Virus record (IMG/VR): IMGVR_UViG_3300020172_001259
Location: 1-21,997 of that record
DNA: 21,997 bases
Reading direction: 5' to 3' (one strand)
From: a virus
Under the pieces are notes generated by a model, which saw nothing but the letters and a program-made list of their open reading frames with translations, was not told where the DNA came from and did not search any database. A program made the position numbers and the translations under genes. How positions within the stretch are numbered: position 1 is the first letter of the stretch; every line of letters starts with the position of its first letter. Shown here piece by piece: positions 13,265 through 20,011 of the stretch.

Positions 13265-14653
13265 CTATACAATCATTGAGCCAGCAAAACAGTCAACTGA
13301 CATGTTTAGTACTGTTCTTAAAGGAACCATGTTTTCGGCAAAAGATGTGTGGTTGATAGATAAAGAACTTAACCACCCAACGTATGACAAGCTGTTCATT
13401 GAGCTAATGCTACTGACGTCTCCGCCTAATTCAAAAGCTAAAAGCGTAGGTTGTAGGTATCCTAAGTCCGCTGTTTTTTTACCTAACAAGTTTTTCCAAC
13501 CGTCTGCAGAAGCATCTCCAAACTTTCCATCACCATTGATAGCTTTAAATAGATACTCCAAATCAGCCATTGTTCCAAGCTCGGCAAGTTTTTTAATTTG
13601 TAGTGCATAATCTTCAGTTTTTGCTAATGGATGCTTTCCACCGTTTGTGTAATACTGATTAAAGTCTACATAGTTGCCATCATTACCAATATTAGCAAGT
13701 TGATAAAAATTTCTAATACAAGCAAAATCATTAGTTCTATCTAATGTGATAGATAAGCTAACGCTTTCTTGACCTGGAAACGCACCAGATACCGAAGTAT
13801 ACACATCGGCAGATGACGGAGTAATCTCCATGTTTCTATTAACACTGACAGAAATAGACTCAGGATTCCACAAAAATTGGAATCCGTATTTATAAGAGTC
13901 GTCGCCAATAATTGTTCGTCCATCAGGTTTGTAAGTTTTATTTCCAATTTCTTTTTGACGTTTGTCACCCATGGTAGAAACTTCGCCAGTTGTTCTATCA
14001 ATAGAGGTTGCATTAGCTGCGTTGTCGTAATACCAAATTCTACCTCGTCGTGAGCCGTGAAACGCGTACCCAAATCCACCTACATCACCTGGGATAACCT
14101 CTTGAGGTCTTATTGGAAGGCTCCAATTGTGTGGGGGTAAATTAAAACTATAATTGTAAGGACTAGGAATTGGAGGAGTCTTTGAGGCTTTTTTACCGCC
14201 ACCACCTTTGTTTCCACCCTTGCCGCCAGACCCACCAGACCCACCAGTGCCTCCAGGACCAGAGCCCGTTTTGTTTTTATTAGCTAGCATCTTACTTAGA
14301 GCTAGTGCACCGATAGCTGCAACACCAGTACCAACTGGTCCAGCACTACCGCGGGCAGCAGTAGCGATTCCCGCTCTTGTAAAACCGTAAATCTTTGAAG
14401 CTAAGCTTGGAGCAGCAACTACTGCAGCTCCCTTAAGCGTAGTACCTGCCGTACTCTTAGTTGTTTTAACAACAGAAGTTTTTACTCCTGGATTTTTGCT
14501 CAACTTTAAAACAGTAGTTTTATTACTTTTTATCCCTGTCTTAGTAACGTTGACTGCAACTTTAGCGACGCTTACCGCACGTGAGCGAGTAAGGACTGCG
14601 GCACCAACACGGATTGCACCTAATGCTAGCGGTACGGCTAATGGAAATGGCAT
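13265..14653 (-). CDS. CIS-tube-like tail tube initiator, long N-terminal extension
   Basis: A 462-aa protein in three parts. Residues 1-125 are hydrophobic and basic, with no acidic residue that I can see. Residues 130-156 are a Gly/Ser/Lys linker. The C-terminal part resembles the tube-like domain of contractile injection systems (N-terminal part of Afp7/Pvc7): FQFLWNPESISVSVNRNMEI, PGQESVSLSITLDRTNDFAC, LGYLQPTLLAFELGG, and YVGWLSSLSINHTSFAENMV then PLRTVLNMSVDCF. It would form the first tube ring on top of the hub. Afp7 carries a LysM at its C-terminus; here the LysM is the next gene. The start shares TAATG with the tape measure stop, with AGGAGG seven bases upstream. The domain call rests on motif spacing by eye. 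Confidence 0.7.
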   Translation of the reverse strand: MPFPLAVPLALGAIRVGAAVLTRSRAVSVAKVAVNVTKTGIKSNKTTVLKLSKNPGVKTSVVKTTKSTAGTTLKGAAVVAAPSLASKIYGFTRAGIATAARGSAGPVGTGVAAIGALALSKMLANKNKTGSGPGGTGGSGGSGGKGGNKGGGGKKASKTPPIPSPYNYSFNLPPHNWSLPIRPQEVIPGDVGGFGYAFHGSRRGRIWYYDNAANATSIDRTTGEVSTMGDKRQKEIGNKTYKPDGRTIIGDDSYKYGFQFLWNPESISVSVNRNMEITPSSADVYTSVSGAFPGQESVSLSITLDRTNDFACIRNFYQLANIGNDGNYVDFNQYYTNGGKHPLAKTEDYALQIKKLAELGTMADLEYLFKAINGDGKFGDASADGWKNLLGKKTADLGYLQPTLLAFELGGDVSSISSMNSLSYVGWLSSLSINHTSFAENMVPLRTVLNMSVDCFAGSMIV

Positions 14654-16911
14654 TATTGTCCTCCTAGTTGCTTGTTAAAGTTTTGACTAGATAAAAGTTG
14701 CTTAAGCGCTTCTGCAGTTGCAGCTGGGTTTCCGCCACCTTCAATTTTAATAGTTACTCCACCCATGTTGTATGTACTAGCAGAAGGTGTTGGTTGAGCA
14801 AATGCTTCTGGCTTTTCTTTTTTATCAAACCCCGCCCATCGGTCTGATTTTGATAAAAACTCTTTCCAAGATACGCCACTAGCACCGTCACTACTATTAC
14901 CAGGAAGCATCCCAGACCAACCAGAGTTAGTTGTTGGGGTCGTCTTGCCGTCAAAGTTATATGGACTTCCACCAACTTTACCTGTAACCCAAGCAGAACT
15001 ATTAATAGCAGCAAGAATATCTTCTTTACTCTTACCAGCTTTTAACGCTTCAATAATGTCTGTGTATCCACGCTTGTCTGCGCTCTTACCAGTAAGGGTA
15101 TCGATAGTTGCATTAAGTCCATCTTCCCAGCTCTTATAAACCTTTACGCCTACGTGGTTCATAGACTCTGAGCCGTACTTGCCACCTAAAGTTGTATTAA
15201 GTGGGTTGTACTTAGCAGAGTTTTTAAAGTGACCACCCTCATGGTTCTGCCATATCTTTAAAGCATCAATAGAATCTTGGCTTTGAGGAGCACCAATCTT
15301 TTTTAAGAAAGCTTTAGCAAAGTCTTCGTTTGAAGATTTCTCATCTAATCCTGTGCCTTTTCCAAACACCCAACCACCGTCACCACGGAATGGGTAGTTC
15401 TTTAAATCGTGGTTAGGAACAATGTATCCATCTTCTTTAGGTACAAAGAGTTCTGGTCCGCGCTCGCCAACAATGTAAGGTGACTTTTTGTCTACGTCTC
15501 CGCCCTCAGCTTTAAATATTCCTGTAAGGGCTCTTGATACTGGGTTACCAACTAAGAAACCAGTGAGAGCACTTATGGCGTTATTACCGCCGCTACCTAG
15601 TGTTTCAAAGAAACCTTTAGTTGCACCTAGAGCAGATATAAGACCAGTAAACTTATCCATCTCGGTAAAGAAACCACTTACATAAGACATAAGCTGGTCT
15701 GCTCTACCCTTAGCGTCAGCAATAGCTGGAGCTGTTGTAGAGATAAATTCTGATGCTTGAGCAGTTCTTTGCCCCTGCATGTTTGCAGCAAAAGTAGAAA
15801 GACCTGCGTCTTGAGATAGCTTCTTCATTCTGTCGCCACTCATACCAGCAAACTGTGCTCCGCCTGTAGACGCCTTAAGTAGAAGTCCGTCTTCAATCAT
15901 CTTTCTTAGGTACGGGTCATTACCAAAAAGATTATCAAGCATGGTGGCAATTGCGTTACCAGGCAATAAAGAAGTTTTAATATCTTGAAGAGTAGAACCA
16001 GAACCACCAGTGCGTCTCTTTTGACTCTCAAGTTTATTCCACAAGTCATCAATGATAGCTCTTGGGTCGCGAGGCATTCCGTTTTCATCACGAACCCTAA
16101 TACCAACCGCTCTTAACATGTTTACGCTTCTACCGCGGTTAAGTGCGCCCACTGCTTGAGCAGCGCCTTCTCCACCCATACCAGGAGTCATGTTAGATAA
16201 AACTGCAGAGCCCATAGCAACCTGCTGCATGTTTTGCTGGGAACCGCCATAGATACCACCTTGTGCAAAGGTAGCCATCATTCGCATATTATCTAGCGGG
16301 TCTTTCATAAGACCAGCTTTTGCTATTTTGTTTAAGAAATCTCGTGTCTGGTCATAAGCGCCGTTCTTTCCGCTCATGTCAGATAATCCACCAAGCACTC
16401 CTGGCATACCCGCTTGAACGCGGCCTCCGCCACCTAAAGATATAGCAGCACGTGATGTATATAGCTGTGCTTTAAATGCATCGTCTGTGCCTGGCATTGC
16501 CATGGCAGCAGCAGTAACACCAGCTGCAGCTATTTGAGCAGGTGATGGTTGTCTAAAGACGTTTGTATTTCCGCCACCTTGAGGTGCGCCTGCAGCAGCA
16601 GGACCTGTACCACCTGGACCAGCAGGACCAGCGGGGCCGCCTGGGCCGCCTGCTTGTGGAGTAGAAAAAGTAGGGCCAGCCATAACAGTATTGGCGCCAC
16701 CTGGGCCACCAATACCGCTAAAGGCGTTTTTAAATTTAGCACCCATGCGGGTGATTTTTTGTTCGGCTGCATTAAGTGAGCTGTTAATTCTGTACTCAAT
16801 GGTGCTAGCCATTTGTAAAAGGGTAGAGTGAGCCCCACGGCTTGATTGTTCAAACCGCTGCATGTTGTTCGCAGCATTTCCACTACTGGAGTTGCTAGGC
16901 ATATTTAACAT
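14653..16911 (-). CDS. Tail tape measure protein with cell-wall hydrolase domain
   Basis: A 752-aa tape measure protein that sets tail length and is ejected with the DNA. Residues about 68-115 are a collagen-like Gly-Pro-rich stretch. Residues 120-460 are Ala/Gly/Met-rich and helical, as in tape measures. FKAEGGDVDKKSPYIVGERG followed by PELFVPKEDGYIVPN (467-500) is a tape-measure hallmark. Residues about 527-655 resemble a lysozyme/transglycosylase-like hydrolase: a Glu in WQNHEGG (E558, possible catalytic residue), NSAKYNPLNTTLGGKYGSES, VGVKVYKSWEDGLNATIDTL, and YTDIIEALKAGKS...INSSAW. By the 0.15 nm-per-residue rule of thumb the tail would be at most about 110 nm. AAGGA lies seven bases before the ATG. 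The start shares TAATG with the preceding start-less frame. Confidence 0.93.
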   Translation of the reverse strand: MLNMPSNSSSGNAANNMQRFEQSSRGAHSTLLQMASTIEYRINSSLNAAEQKITRMGAKFKNAFSGIGGPGGANTVMAGPTFSTPQAGGPGGPAGPAGPGGTGPAAAGAPQGGGNTNVFRQPSPAQIAAAGVTAAAMAMPGTDDAFKAQLYTSRAAISLGGGGRVQAGMPGVLGGLSDMSGKNGAYDQTRDFLNKIAKAGLMKDPLDNMRMMATFAQGGIYGGSQQNMQQVAMGSAVLSNMTPGMGGEGAAQAVGALNRGRSVNMLRAVGIRVRDENGMPRDPRAIIDDLWNKLESQKRRTGGSGSTLQDIKTSLLPGNAIATMLDNLFGNDPYLRKMIEDGLLLKASTGGAQFAGMSGDRMKKLSQDAGLSTFAANMQGQRTAQASEFISTTAPAIADAKGRADQLMSYVSGFFTEMDKFTGLISALGATKGFFETLGSGGNNAISALTGFLVGNPVSRALTGIFKAEGGDVDKKSPYIVGERGPELFVPKEDGYIVPNHDLKNYPFRGDGGWVFGKGTGLDEKSSNEDFAKAFLKKIGAPQSQDSIDALKIWQNHEGGHFKNSAKYNPLNTTLGGKYGSESMNHVGVKVYKSWEDGLNATIDTLTGKSADKRGYTDIIEALKAGKSKEDILAAINSSAWVTGKVGGSPYNFDGKTTPTTNSGWSGMLPGNSSDGASGVSWKEFLSKSDRWAGFDKKEKPEAFAQPTPSASTYNMGGVTIKIEGGGNPAATAEALKQLLSSQNFNKQLGGQ

Positions 16912-17090
16912 TATCTAGTCCTTCTAGAACGTTCTAACCAATTAAGACGCTCTCTGGGTGAGAGGCTTCTTATATCTGATAGTGACCAACCAACGAAAGT
17001 TCTTGTAAGAATCTCGTACTGGTCTAACAGGCTTTCGTAATCTGTTTCACTAAATGCGAAACAAGTCGAGCAAGGACAGCGGAAGAGCCA
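16911..17090 (-). CDS. Start-less overlapping frame, probable +1 frameshift extension
   Basis: Between the gp26-like gene and the tape measure gene, the frame shifted +1 from the gp26-like gene is open for 59 codons (from 17090) and ends with a TAA at 16913-16911 that overlaps the tape measure ATG. It contains no ATG, GTG or TTG codon. Its translation is protein-like: ETDYESLLDQYEILTRTFVG, WSLSDIRSLSPRERLNWLER, SRRTR. The overlap with the gp26-like frame spans 17050-17090. A plausible slip site is TTT followed by C (17061-17058), where a Phe tRNA could re-pair on TTC. That would give a 262 + 48 = 310-aa fusion. A single-base assembly error or a degraded gene is the alternative. Confidence 0.6.
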   Translation of the reverse strand, partial: WLFRCPCSTCFAFSETDYESLLDQYEILTRTFVGWSLSDIRSLSPRERLNWLERSRRTR

Positions 17091-17844
17091 TTAACTCACC
17101 ACATGCCTTACAAGCCCTGGTCACCTCCCCAAGGCGTGGACCTGGGTTACGCTTGATGATTTCATCAACAAGCTTGGTTCTATCTGCCATACCCAAAGAT
17201 AAAGCAGTCATAGCACCTTCAGATGGTTCTCCGTTTAGTGACACTAAGCATCCAGCTAGTAAAATTGTATTTACTTCTGCAGGTGTTCGTTCAAAGTTCT
17301 CCATGAGTTTTCTTTGAGTAACACCGTTTGGTAGAGCCACTATGGCTGTACCTGTTTTTGTTTCAACTTCAAAAGTTCTATCTTCTTTAGCATCTTTTAA
17401 TTCCACTACTGGAACGTCTGATGATAAAAGGATAGAGACATCTTGCGTATCACCACAGTCACGACAACGTGCGGTGATATTAATGTCATCCCCGAAAGTC
17501 ACCTTTCTAATTGCTAGAAGGATGGTGTCTCGGTCGCCAGCTAGGATAGAATCTAGGTCTGCCTTCTCAGCGTTCCTAGAGCCAATCTTTACAAGGCCTC
17601 GTTGCAAAAGGACATTGAGAGCTTTGCCTGAGGTACCTGCTTTTGCTACAGCTTCCTCGTCAGCCCCGTTAAGTTCTCGTACTTCAACTGTGTTGATTAC
17701 TTCACCATTTGGCTCAATGAAGCCGCCTGGCAACTTAACAGAAGACTCTGAAGGGGCCCGCGTCTTAATGACTTGTGCGGGCTCCTCCATCGCCTTTGCT
17801 GCAAATTTCTGTATTAGTTCTGCGTCTGTGATAATTTCAGTCAC
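17050..17844 (-). CDS. T4 gp26-like baseplate/chaperone protein, 4-Cys
   Basis: A 264-aa protein resembling the T4 gp26-type family (hub assembly or chaperone), usually found just upstream of the tape measure gene. It has two CxxC pairs, C127-RD-C130 and C245-KA-C248, that could together form a zinc ribbon. Other family-like pieces are NTVEVRELNGADEEAV, ILLAIRKVTFGDDINITARC and MTALSLGMADRTKLVDEIIK. The start is GTG (17844) with AGGAG eight bases upstream. The frame stops soon after the last Cys pair, at LLDLFRI, and a +1 frame continues with helical sequence, so a longer frameshifted form is likely. By place and architecture it may be the tail assembly chaperone pair (short form plus extended form), as in lambda G/GT. 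Assignment to gp26 rests on context and the Cys pairs. Confidence 0.72.
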   Translation of the reverse strand: MTEIITDAELIQKFAAKAMEEPAQVIKTRAPSESSVKLPGGFIEPNGEVINTVEVRELNGADEEAVAKAGTSGKALNVLLQRGLVKIGSRNAEKADLDSILAGDRDTILLAIRKVTFGDDINITARCRDCGDTQDVSILLSSDVPVVELKDAKEDRTFEVETKTGTAIVALPNGVTQRKLMENFERTPAEVNTILLAGCLVSLNGEPSEGAMTALSLGMADRTKLVDEIIKRNPGPRLGEVTRACKACGELMALPLSLLDLFRI

Positions 17845-17869: not shown

Positions 17870-18478
17870 TTAAGAAATTTTTCCTGCTGCGTCTTCTTCT
17901 TTGCCGTCCTTAGTAAAGAAGACTGACAAGCCTTCATGTACTAATGTCATTGACTCAAACAAGATTGCGCCATCTGCTGCGTTAAGGTCTGTATAGTTTA
18001 GCGCAGTAATCCATGCATTGTGAATCTTGAAACCCATCTTGTACTTCTGAACCTCTGTTGGTCCAGAGTTTGGATGGTCAGCTACAAACACCTTGATGTT
18101 AACGCGGAAGCTTTCAGCAGCTCCTGTTGTGCCGCCGTTTACAGCAATACCTTCTCCAGATGCTGCTGCAAATAGACCACGCATCCATGTGATTGCCTGG
18201 TCATTACCAGCCAATACTCCACGCTGCATAGTGATTGGTGTAAAGGTAGTCATACCAGGTACCTGATGTACTGTGGTGTTGTAGCCACCTTCACGATATT
18301 GAATGGCCTGAGTGTTGATGCTCAACCCACTGATACTGCTAAATCCGCCAGACCAGGTGATAAGTTTCTGGTCAAAGACCTTACCGTCCTTTGCTACCTC
18401 AAACTTAGCGAAGAACCGAAACGAGCGTAACGGGTCTGTTGCTAGTGTTGAGTGGCGATTGATTATGCTACTTGTCAT
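17870..18478 (-). CDS. Tail tube protein (gp19-like)
   Basis: A 202-aa inner tube protein that polymerises inside the sheath. Family features of gp19-type tubes are visible: DPLRSFRFFAKFEVAKDGKV near the N-terminus, GGFSSISGLSINTQAIQYRE, HQVPGMTTFTPITMQRGVLA, NDQAITWMRGLFAAA, and late YKMGFKIHNAWITALNYTDL then NAADGAILFESMTLVHEGL. Length fits (150-210 aa). It follows the sheath gene by 15 bases, the conserved sheath-tube order. An AAGGAG site lies about ten bases before the ATG. Confidence 0.95.
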   Translation of the reverse strand: MTSSIINRHSTLATDPLRSFRFFAKFEVAKDGKVFDQKLITWSGGFSSISGLSINTQAIQYREGGYNTTVHQVPGMTTFTPITMQRGVLAGNDQAITWMRGLFAAASGEGIAVNGGTTGAAESFRVNIKVFVADHPNSGPTEVQKYKMGFKIHNAWITALNYTDLNAADGAILFESMTLVHEGLSVFFTKDGKEEDAAGKIS

Positions 18479-18493
18479 TGGTGGTTATCTCCT

Positions 18494-20011
18494 TTACGCC
18501 ACAGTAACGGTGGTGCCACCGTCAAACTGTCCAATTTTAATAATGATAAATTCAGCTGGACGCTGTAGAGCAACGCCAACTTCAATGTTTACGTACCCAT
18601 TGTCAATCGAGCTTTGTGGGTTGTTTTCTGCATCAACCTTTACAAAGAACGCTGCTTGTGGGGTAGCGCCTCGTAGCCCACCCTTGCTCCAGAAATCAGT
18701 AAGGAAAGTACTGATTGAAGAGTTAATGCGGTTCCACAAGAACTCGTCGTTTGGCTCAAAGATTGCAAACTGTGTAAGGTCTGTAAGAGACTTACGTAGA
18801 TAGATAAGTGTGCGACGTACAGGTACGTACTTGTCTACATATCCACCCTTTAGAGTGCGTGAACCCATGATTACAATGCCTGAACCAGGTACAAACTTGA
18901 TTGCGTTTACTGGATAAGCCGCAGAGTTAAGAGTATCAAGTTCACTATTTGTTAATGTTGCCACTGAAACAACGCCTGATACGCGAGCAAGAAGACCAGC
19001 GGGGGCCTTGAATACTCCACGTGATGCATCAGTTGTTGCGATAACGCCCATAACCGCTGCGCCAGAACCAACTGCTCTTACACGCCCTGTGCCAGAACCA
19101 GGAGCAAGTGTTGGGTCAGAAATAAGAAGATTTGGATAATAAACAGCGGCAAGTGAGCTTGCTGTGTACTGTGCAGCCAAAGCCAACTGTACAGAGGACT
19201 CATCATAGACGCCGTCAATAACTACAAACACATCTTGACGAGAGTTTGCATAACCAATAGCTGCGTTAATAACTGGAACGGTTGAGTTACCAGGTATATT
19301 CAAAATTAAAGATTGTTTAATGGTGTCAAAGTTTAAAAGACCATTTGAATAATCTGTATTACCTATAGCGGTTCCATTGATTCCAGTAGCTAAAGTTTGG
19401 TTTGTTACAACAGCTGGGTTACGAGTAGAACCTGTGTTTGCTGAGTTAAGGTCAGTTAGTCGTACGTAGCCAGAAGCTGCGTTAACGATAGCTGTTGCAT
19501 AACGAGCATTTGTTGCTGTCATTGAAAGGTCAACGTGACGCTCAACTAGGTTTGCATCTGTATTGCCACCGTAGTAAACAAACAAATCAAATAGACCTGT
19601 TGTTGCTGAGTTACCAATACTGATATTAATGTTGTTACCCCAAGCTCCAGCGTTATTAGCTTGAATTTGAAGTGTTGCTGATGGGCTTGCTGCTCGGTCG
19701 GAAAGTGAACGAGTTGCTGATGTTGCGCCTGGTGCAATGCGGTTAACGTAGCACTGGCTTCCACCGTTTGTAAAGAACATGTACACAGCAAGTGGTAAAT
19801 CATTACTAGCTGCTCCTGTTCCAGTACTTGTGTTCCAAGTACCGTACAGTGTTGAGTACTGGCTCCATGATGTAATTAATTGAGGTATTCCAACTGGACC
19901 ACGGTCGTTTGCGCCAATAAATGCGCCGACAGAATCTGAGTTTGGACCAACCACAGGTGCGACAGGATTTAACGTTTCTTCAACGTAAACTCCTGGACGT
20001 AGAACTGCCAT
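18494..20011 (-). CDS. Contractile tail sheath protein
   Basis: A 505-aa sheath protein that contracts to drive the tube through the host envelope. The N-terminus LRPGVYVEETLNPVAPVVGP and GAFIGANDRGPVGIPQLITS are typical, followed by FFTNGGSQCYVNRI. The C-terminal sheath domain has LKGGYVDKYVPVRRTLIYLR (with KSLTDLTQFAIFEPND after it) and a final strand region, YVNIEVGVALQRPAEFIIIK. The central part (about 120-400) is more variable, as usual for the surface domain. AAAGGAGA lies six bases upstream of the ATG. This gene establishes the myovirus-type tail. Confidence 0.97.
   Translation of the reverse strand: MAVLRPGVYVEETLNPVAPVVGPNSDSVGAFIGANDRGPVGIPQLITSWSQYSTLYGTWNTSTGTGAASNDLPLAVYMFFTNGGSQCYVNRIAPGATSATRSLSDRAASPSATLQIQANNAGAWGNNINISIGNSATTGLFDLFVYYGGNTDANLVERHVDLSMTATNARYATAIVNAASGYVRLTDLNSANTGSTRNPAVVTNQTLATGINGTAIGNTDYSNGLLNFDTIKQSLILNIPGNSTVPVINAAIGYANSRQDVFVVIDGVYDESSVQLALAAQYTASSLAAVYYPNLLISDPTLAPGSGTGRVRAVGSGAAVMGVIATTDASRGVFKAPAGLLARVSGVVSVATLTNSELDTLNSAAYPVNAIKFVPGSGIVIMGSRTLKGGYVDKYVPVRRTLIYLRKSLTDLTQFAIFEPNDEFLWNRINSSISTFLTDFWSKGGLRGATPQAAFFVKVDAENNPQSSIDNGYVNIEVGVALQRPAEFIIIKIGQFDGGTTVTVA

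Follow-up and report, generated by a model that had tools for sequence, protein, structure and literature searches.

A contractile-tailed phage from a lake very probably produces a pair of tail assembly chaperones, one short and one long, from a single gene by +1 ribosomal frameshifting at UUU_CRN, a motif of the influenza PA-X type. The comparative evidence for a real programmed +1 frameshift site in this chaperone of the T4 gp26/gp51 family is strong. The sequence under study (hereafter the window) is the whole 21,997-base virus record IMGVR_UViG_3300020172_001259 of IMG/VR. The order tail tube, gp26, extension and tape measure is found both in the window and in its relatives, and the features of the window are as follows:

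18494..20011, minus strand: tail sheath gene (phrog_23, E=1.9e-44)
17870..18478, minus strand: tail tube gene, gp19-like, upstream of the gp26-like gene (PF06841, E=3e-23)
17050..17844, minus strand: gp26-like gene, putative short form TAC-N (PF12322 T4_baseplate; phrog_150 baseplate hub)
17455..17466, minus strand: first CxxC (C127, C130) of the gp26-like protein, in nearly invariant columns
17101..17112, minus strand: second CxxC (C245, C248), part of the predicted fold's second repeat, in nearly invariant columns and with repeated secondary structure in the model
17056..17064, minus strand: candidate +1 slip site TTG_TTT_CGC (E-, P- and A-site codons), with TTT-C in 77/77 distinct relatives
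17050..17052, minus strand: TAG, the 0-frame stop of the short form, two codons beyond TTT_CGC, with the spacing kept in relatives
16911..17057, minus strand: +1-frame extension (putative TAC-C or gp51-like domain), 48 codons plus TAA, with a conserved motif, a dN/dS estimate and a three-helix model
14653..16911, minus strand: tape-measure gene (phrog_10574 tail length tape measure, E=3e-7)

The gp26-like protein is 264 amino acids long, starts with GTG, ends at the TAG at 17052-17050 and matches Pfam PF12322 (T4_baseplate) with E=1.1e-7 (32.3 bits, cut-off 24.5). The 3' end of its gene reads GAC TTG TTT CGC ATT TAG on the minus strand; a slip of the P-site codon from TTT to TTC would fall on 17061-17058, and the codons CGC and ATT precede the stop. 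This is the pattern of a UUU_CGN +1 site, an in-frame UUU followed by CGN (here TTT CGC) with the extension in the +1 frame. Most phages with chaperone frameshifting slip backwards, not forwards. No X_XXY_YYZ heptamer is present at the window site and the extension lies in +1, so the gene falls outside the canonical -1 chaperone class.

An earlier note on this DNA had described a +1 frame open from 17090 to 16914 (59 codons) without any ATG, GTG or TTG, whose stop TAA at 16913-16911 overlaps the tape-measure ATG at 16911 (TAATG), and had named TTT-C at 17061-17058, two codons ahead of the 0-frame stop, as the candidate slip site. All of this was reproduced, the open frame in full. Taken alone, a startless open frame is not evidence beyond chance, as there is another in the window: of the stop-to-stop frames with 59 or more codons, one of 42 on the minus strand (the extension frame) and one of 46 on the plus strand lack a start codon. 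The second one (14857-15042, plus strand, 62 codons) is antisense to the tape-measure gene and is probably due to chance. The startless frame becomes significant through the conserved TTT-C site and the conserved extension.

From this arrangement we infer that a shift occurs, with some efficiency and in the +1 rather than the -2 direction, and that its products act as chaperones. Most ribosomes would stop at the TAG at 17052-17050 and release the 264-residue short form (TAC-N), and some would pause with tRNA-Phe on UUU in the P site and CGC in the A site. The tRNA-Phe would then re-pair one base forward, from UUU to UUC, a better match for its GAA anticodon, and 48 more codons would be read. 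The resulting long form (TAC-NC) of 310 residues, the likely equivalent of T4 gp51 and lambda gpGT, would contain a transframe peptide such as ACGELMALPLSLLDLFAFSETDYESLLDQYEILTR. If lambda G/GT is a guide, the tape measure would be coated by many copies of the short form and few of the long one, which would recruit tube subunits and then leave. In the lambda model, many G and few GT sit on the tape measure and neither is in the virion (PMC5009743).

Relatives were gathered with gp26 alone, with the junction and with the extension alone, and isolates were added. Clustering of the gp26-alone, junction and isolate sets at 95% nucleotide identity gave 77 distinct relatives, whose protein identity with the window runs from 100% down to 34%, Streptomyces phages among them. 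The earlier note had proposed looking among relatives for a continuous fusion of the two frames or for the same overlap with a conserved slip site; the close relatives hold no continuous in-frame fusion, and all 77 distinct relatives have an in-frame TTT-C ahead of the gp26 stop, followed by the same +1 extension. The stop lies three codons from the slip codon in 71/77 and four codons in 6/77, and since these six clusters keep the extension start at the site, the site and not the stop is the anchor. The A-site codon is CGN in 67/77 and CAR in 10/77, and TTG stands in the E site ahead of TTT in 57/77, compared with 13% of Leu codons. In the gp26 genes of the relatives, TTT accounts for 77% of Phe codons and CGN for 68% of Arg codons; with independent draws, the probability of TTT at every one of the 77 sites would be 1.6e-9 and that of CGN in each of the 67 Arg cases 7e-12, values that ignore kinship and are indicative only. 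Other in-frame occurrences of TTTC[GA] are limited to two of the 19,132 upstream gp26 codons of the relatives.

The single-part queries gave the same picture. With gp26 alone, 77 of 80 loci directly show TTT-C and the +1 extension; of the other three, two have an earlier break in the gene yet retain the site, and the third is unscorable at a contig end. With the extension alone, TTT CGY is in the same position in 80/80 loci. In the records L079/L088 and L028, the gp26-like gene is interrupted upstream by a deletion or an in-frame stop, which may be either an error or a real defect, and the slip site and extension are intact.

A scan of bacterial genomes returned 18 loci, and in 12 of these, with a GC content of 61-68%, the extension is in +1 and TTT-C is at the site (Streptomyces, Saccharothrix, Nonomuraea, Terracoccus, a Bacillota MAG and a MAG labelled Proteobacteria). 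TTT is used at all 12 slip sites, as opposed to 7 of the 74 other Phe codons in the same genes (TTT 7, TTC 67; about 10%). These high-GC loci are the strongest single argument for the site, because their codon bias pushes against TTT. Their A-site codons include CTC, CTG and CCG besides CGC and CAA, leaving the first C as the common element. Contractile injection systems were considered as the setting of the chromosomal loci and were ruled out for the two that were checked: a portal protein, DnaB and a primase surround the Terracoccus locus, and DnaB and a helicase the Streptomyces locus, so that both look like prophages. Six proteobacterial and acidobacterial loci have a -1 extension behind runs of T. 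This third set, opposite in direction, comprises L346-L351 on Lysobacter, Burkholderiales, Ramlibacter and Acidobacteriales chromosomes and reads TTT TTT TTG; the acidobacterial homologue L349 weakly matches PF10109 Phage_TAC_7 (E 0.0016, under the cut-off).

Across the 77 relatives, a Shine-Dalgarno-like 4-mer upstream of the site is found in only five, which is no signal, and downstream RNA structure at the site gives no signal either (mean z 0.07). Given that no stimulator was found, the efficiency of the frameshift may be low. In 302 other ORFs of the relatives' loci, TTT is under-used before C (8.9%, compared with 16.2% for the remaining NNT codons and 23.8% for TTC), as expected if TTT-C is avoided as shift-prone, though codon-pair bias may also have other causes.

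By its substitution pattern, the extension is evolving as a protein. Lack of protein-level conservation had been named as an outcome that would count against the frameshift, but the median dN/dS of the extension is about 0.19 (0.19 over 178 usable pairs), and the entropy in its +1 frame is 0.79, 0.54 and 1.34 at codon positions 1, 2 and 3, the third being the most variable. The consensus is xYxxxxYExLLDQYExLTRxFxGWTLxDIRxLSxRERxNWLERA, with R35, R37 and W40 invariant. The gp26-like part and the extension were modelled apart, and the AlphaFold model of the extension has three helices (pLDDT 90). Pfam and PHROG scans with the window extension alone gave no significant match. PF06528 (Phage_P2_GpE) is weakly matched by 24 of 43 extension relatives (best E 2.2e-4); the window copy scores 13 bits, below the gathering cut-off of 23, and we therefore did not file the extension under this family. 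Profile comparison with the end of P2 E' gave 75% (reversed control 1.5%). Foldseek returned weak matches only for this very small domain; the extension superposes on gp51 of Acinetobacter phage ZZ1 with a TM of 0.82, at an E of 2.8. A search by sequence for a solved structure found none.

More distant relatives extend the pattern into Bacillota phages. Streptococcus phage GXN1, Bacillus SP-15 and Listeria LIS04 have the same gene with the extension in +1; their gp26 ends read TTC TTT CGT, TTT TTT CAC and TTT TTT AGT, respectively, and the extensions start with VPD or TPD directly after the slip codon. The LIS04 site (L235) lacks TTT-C, and slippage there may take place on the first TTT (TTT_T); LIS04 and SP-15 share a conserved +1 extension. 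A second scan of viral contigs with the SP-15 gp26 returned only SP-15 itself.

The earlier note had considered a gp26-like short form unusual. This expectation no longer holds, as T4 gp26 (TAC-N) and gp51 (TAC-NC) have already been identified as the short and long tail chaperones (Vladimirov, Gautam and Davidson 2022, Virology 566:9-15, as cited in PMC10885494 and PMC12846349). T4 and the window gene share a homologous short form (PF12322). In cyanophage-like loci (L242-L321, L238 and L240), T_TTT_TTC precedes the gp26 stop and gp51 is in the -1 frame in 77/77 distinct cases. Vladimirov and co-workers, in 2022, are said to have reported frameshifting in other T4-like groups. T4 gp51, over its full length, aligns with the cyanophage -1 fused form in profile comparison (98.1%, E 1.3e-13), an end-to-end alignment that includes its C-terminal helical domain, and full-length T4 gp26, which lacks the extension, aligns with the gp26 part of the fused form (96.7%). 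The window fused family matches the Bacillota fused forms (98.4%), the combination of the two matches the cyanophage forms (96.7%), and the pooled set of all fused forms matches T4 gp51 (97.1%, E 7e-11), with reversed controls at or below 0.5% throughout. The window family alone matches T4 gp51 weakly (34%), so that the link goes through the intermediates. In terms of sequence, T4 gp51 is the fused form encoded as one gene. The same two products would come from two genes in T4, from a -1 heptamer (T_TTT_TTC) in cyanophages and from one gene with a putative +1 shift at TTT-C in the window.

Together, the gene arrangement, the conservation of the slip site across phages and prophages of Actinobacteria and Bacillota, the purifying selection on the extension and its fusion homology to T4 gp51 can all be read from sequence, and they support the earlier proposal of a short form plus a +1-extended tail assembly chaperone that would slip at TTT-C.

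There are other accounts of the junction. A single-base sequencing or assembly error splitting one continuous gene would look alike in one genome, and a base more or less merging the frames had been named as a possible refutation; however, 20 near-identical records, 77 divergent lineages, isolate genomes and bacterial chromosomes all share the junction, and these independent records refute an indel, the probability of which we regard as negligible. The extension could instead be a separate small gp51-like gene, translated from a non-standard start codon or by ribosomes that re-initiate past the gp26 stop, and several annotations read it this way: KVP40, S-SSM7, Bellamy and Rhizobium RL2RES have a separate gp51 starting near the gp26 stop, and among the Streptomyces phages of L148-L151 a later start or a separate hypothetical gene, its start codon internal to the extension, is called in BRock, GiJojo and LuckySocke, and none in pSt2308. 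Relatives with the extension as a gene of its own had also been named as counter-evidence. Such annotations do exist in T4-like phages (KVP40, cyanophages), yet they do not refute the frameshift, because cyanophage gp51 sits behind the strictly conserved -1 heptamer and several copies have no usable start: L266 lacks any start codon within the first 60 bases of the gp51 frame, and the only start codons of L261, L269 and L277 fall inside the conserved core. The site reads TTT TTC in KVP40, whose small annotated gp51 matches the C-terminal 40 residues of T4 gp51, and TTT TTG in Rhizobium RL2RES. The window frame is startless, and where relatives do have an ATG, GTG or TTG inside the extension its placement is inconsistent and mostly within the conserved core, with no conserved start codon. 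Protein similarity already sets in at the slip site, ahead of the gp26 stop, in the Streptomyces phages too, and a separate gene leaves the invariant TTT-C unexplained, which makes it very unlikely in our view. The same frame would also be reached by a -2 ribosomal shift, as used for Mu gpGT (PMC3498833), or by transcriptional slippage. But tRNA-Phe moved back two bases would meet UGU and pair poorly, where +1 gives UUC; a run of only three T is too short for polymerase slippage; and the constant base is the C after TTT, as +1 predicts. We thus see hardly any room for either.

The function of the products leaves more scope for another reading. The gp26-like protein may be a structural part of the baseplate hub, its extended form serving baseplate assembly and not the chaperoning of the tape measure, as the database names 'baseplate hub' and 'hub assembly catalyst' imply and as older genetics, which put T4 gp26 in the hub (PMC3004832), would suggest. 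The same source, however, also counts gp26 and gp51 among the chaperones of hub assembly and describes gp51 as missing from the particle, and later work identifies them as TAC-N and TAC-NC (as cited in PMC10885494 and PMC12846349). The gene moreover adjoins the tape measure. The AlphaFold model of the gp26-like part (pLDDT 88.5, pTM 0.81) has as its two best matches among 350,542 PDB chains the HK97 tail assembly chaperone 2ob9 (probabilities 0.94 and 0.85), with E-values of 0.32 and 1.0 that are not significant alone; the match points in the same direction as the proposed chaperone role. We therefore consider a hub role unlikely, and a tail assembly chaperone the better reading. The model of 17053-17844 also looks like an internal duplication, with two similar halves and one CxxC in each.

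Similar arrangements are known from other phages. Lambda gpG/gpGT and P2 gpE/E+E' are, like the window gene, located between tube and tape measure and gain a C-terminal extension by recoding near the 3' end, and the end of P2 E' resembles the window-family extension; they differ in using a -1 shift at other heptamers and in having N-terminal domains without recognisable sequence relation. The haloarchaeal myovirus HSTV-2 very likely uses a +1 shift in its tail chaperone (PMC5009743), a likeness to the window in the direction of the shift. Listeria PSA and SPP1 also have +1 recoding in structural operons (PMC5009743, PMC3498833), but it extends a capsid or tail-tube protein, not a chaperone, and PSA slips on a proline codon (PMC5009743).

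The closest likeness of the site itself is in eukaryotic viruses. Influenza A PA-X uses UUU_C with an A-site CGN, its +1 shift was shown by peptide analysis, and tRNA-Phe has been argued to re-pair from UUU to UUC (PMC3498833); plant amalgaviruses have a UUU_CGN +1 site (PMC5052127). Both share with the window the P-site UUU, the following C and the A-site CGN, and PA-X has a conserved E-site codon (PMC3498833), as the window family is constrained to TTG in most relatives. They involve eukaryotic ribosomes, RNA viruses and unrelated proteins, whereas the window relatives also use CAR and the prophages CTN or CCG. The training set of PRFect holds 350 forward cases, and forward shifts are annotated in the chaperone genes of other phages; according to PRFect, no general forward motif is known. 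Open-access papers yielded no account of a +1 UUU_C chaperone site in the gp26/gp51 family, and this version of the chaperone appears to be unannotated.

In a broader view, to which we give even odds, UUU_C with a restricted A-site codon and a preferred E-site codon would be a self-sufficient bacterial +1 signal, acting without a Shine-Dalgarno-like stimulator or RNA structure, that sets the ratio of the two chaperone forms across phages and prophages of Actinobacteria and Bacillota, with TTT-C avoided elsewhere as shift-prone; one homologous family would have switched between -1 (T4-like cyanophages, proteobacterial loci) and +1. The finding adds a deeply conserved +1 form of the tail-assembly recoding switch in phages of lake bacteria and Streptomyces, where it had gone unannotated, and offers a sharp forward motif, TTR_TTT_CRN. 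Influenza PA-X has this same motif, so that one short sequence could be tested on both bacterial and eukaryotic ribosomes. Within one gene family, +1 frameshifting, -1 frameshifting and gene duplication would all yield the same two proteins.
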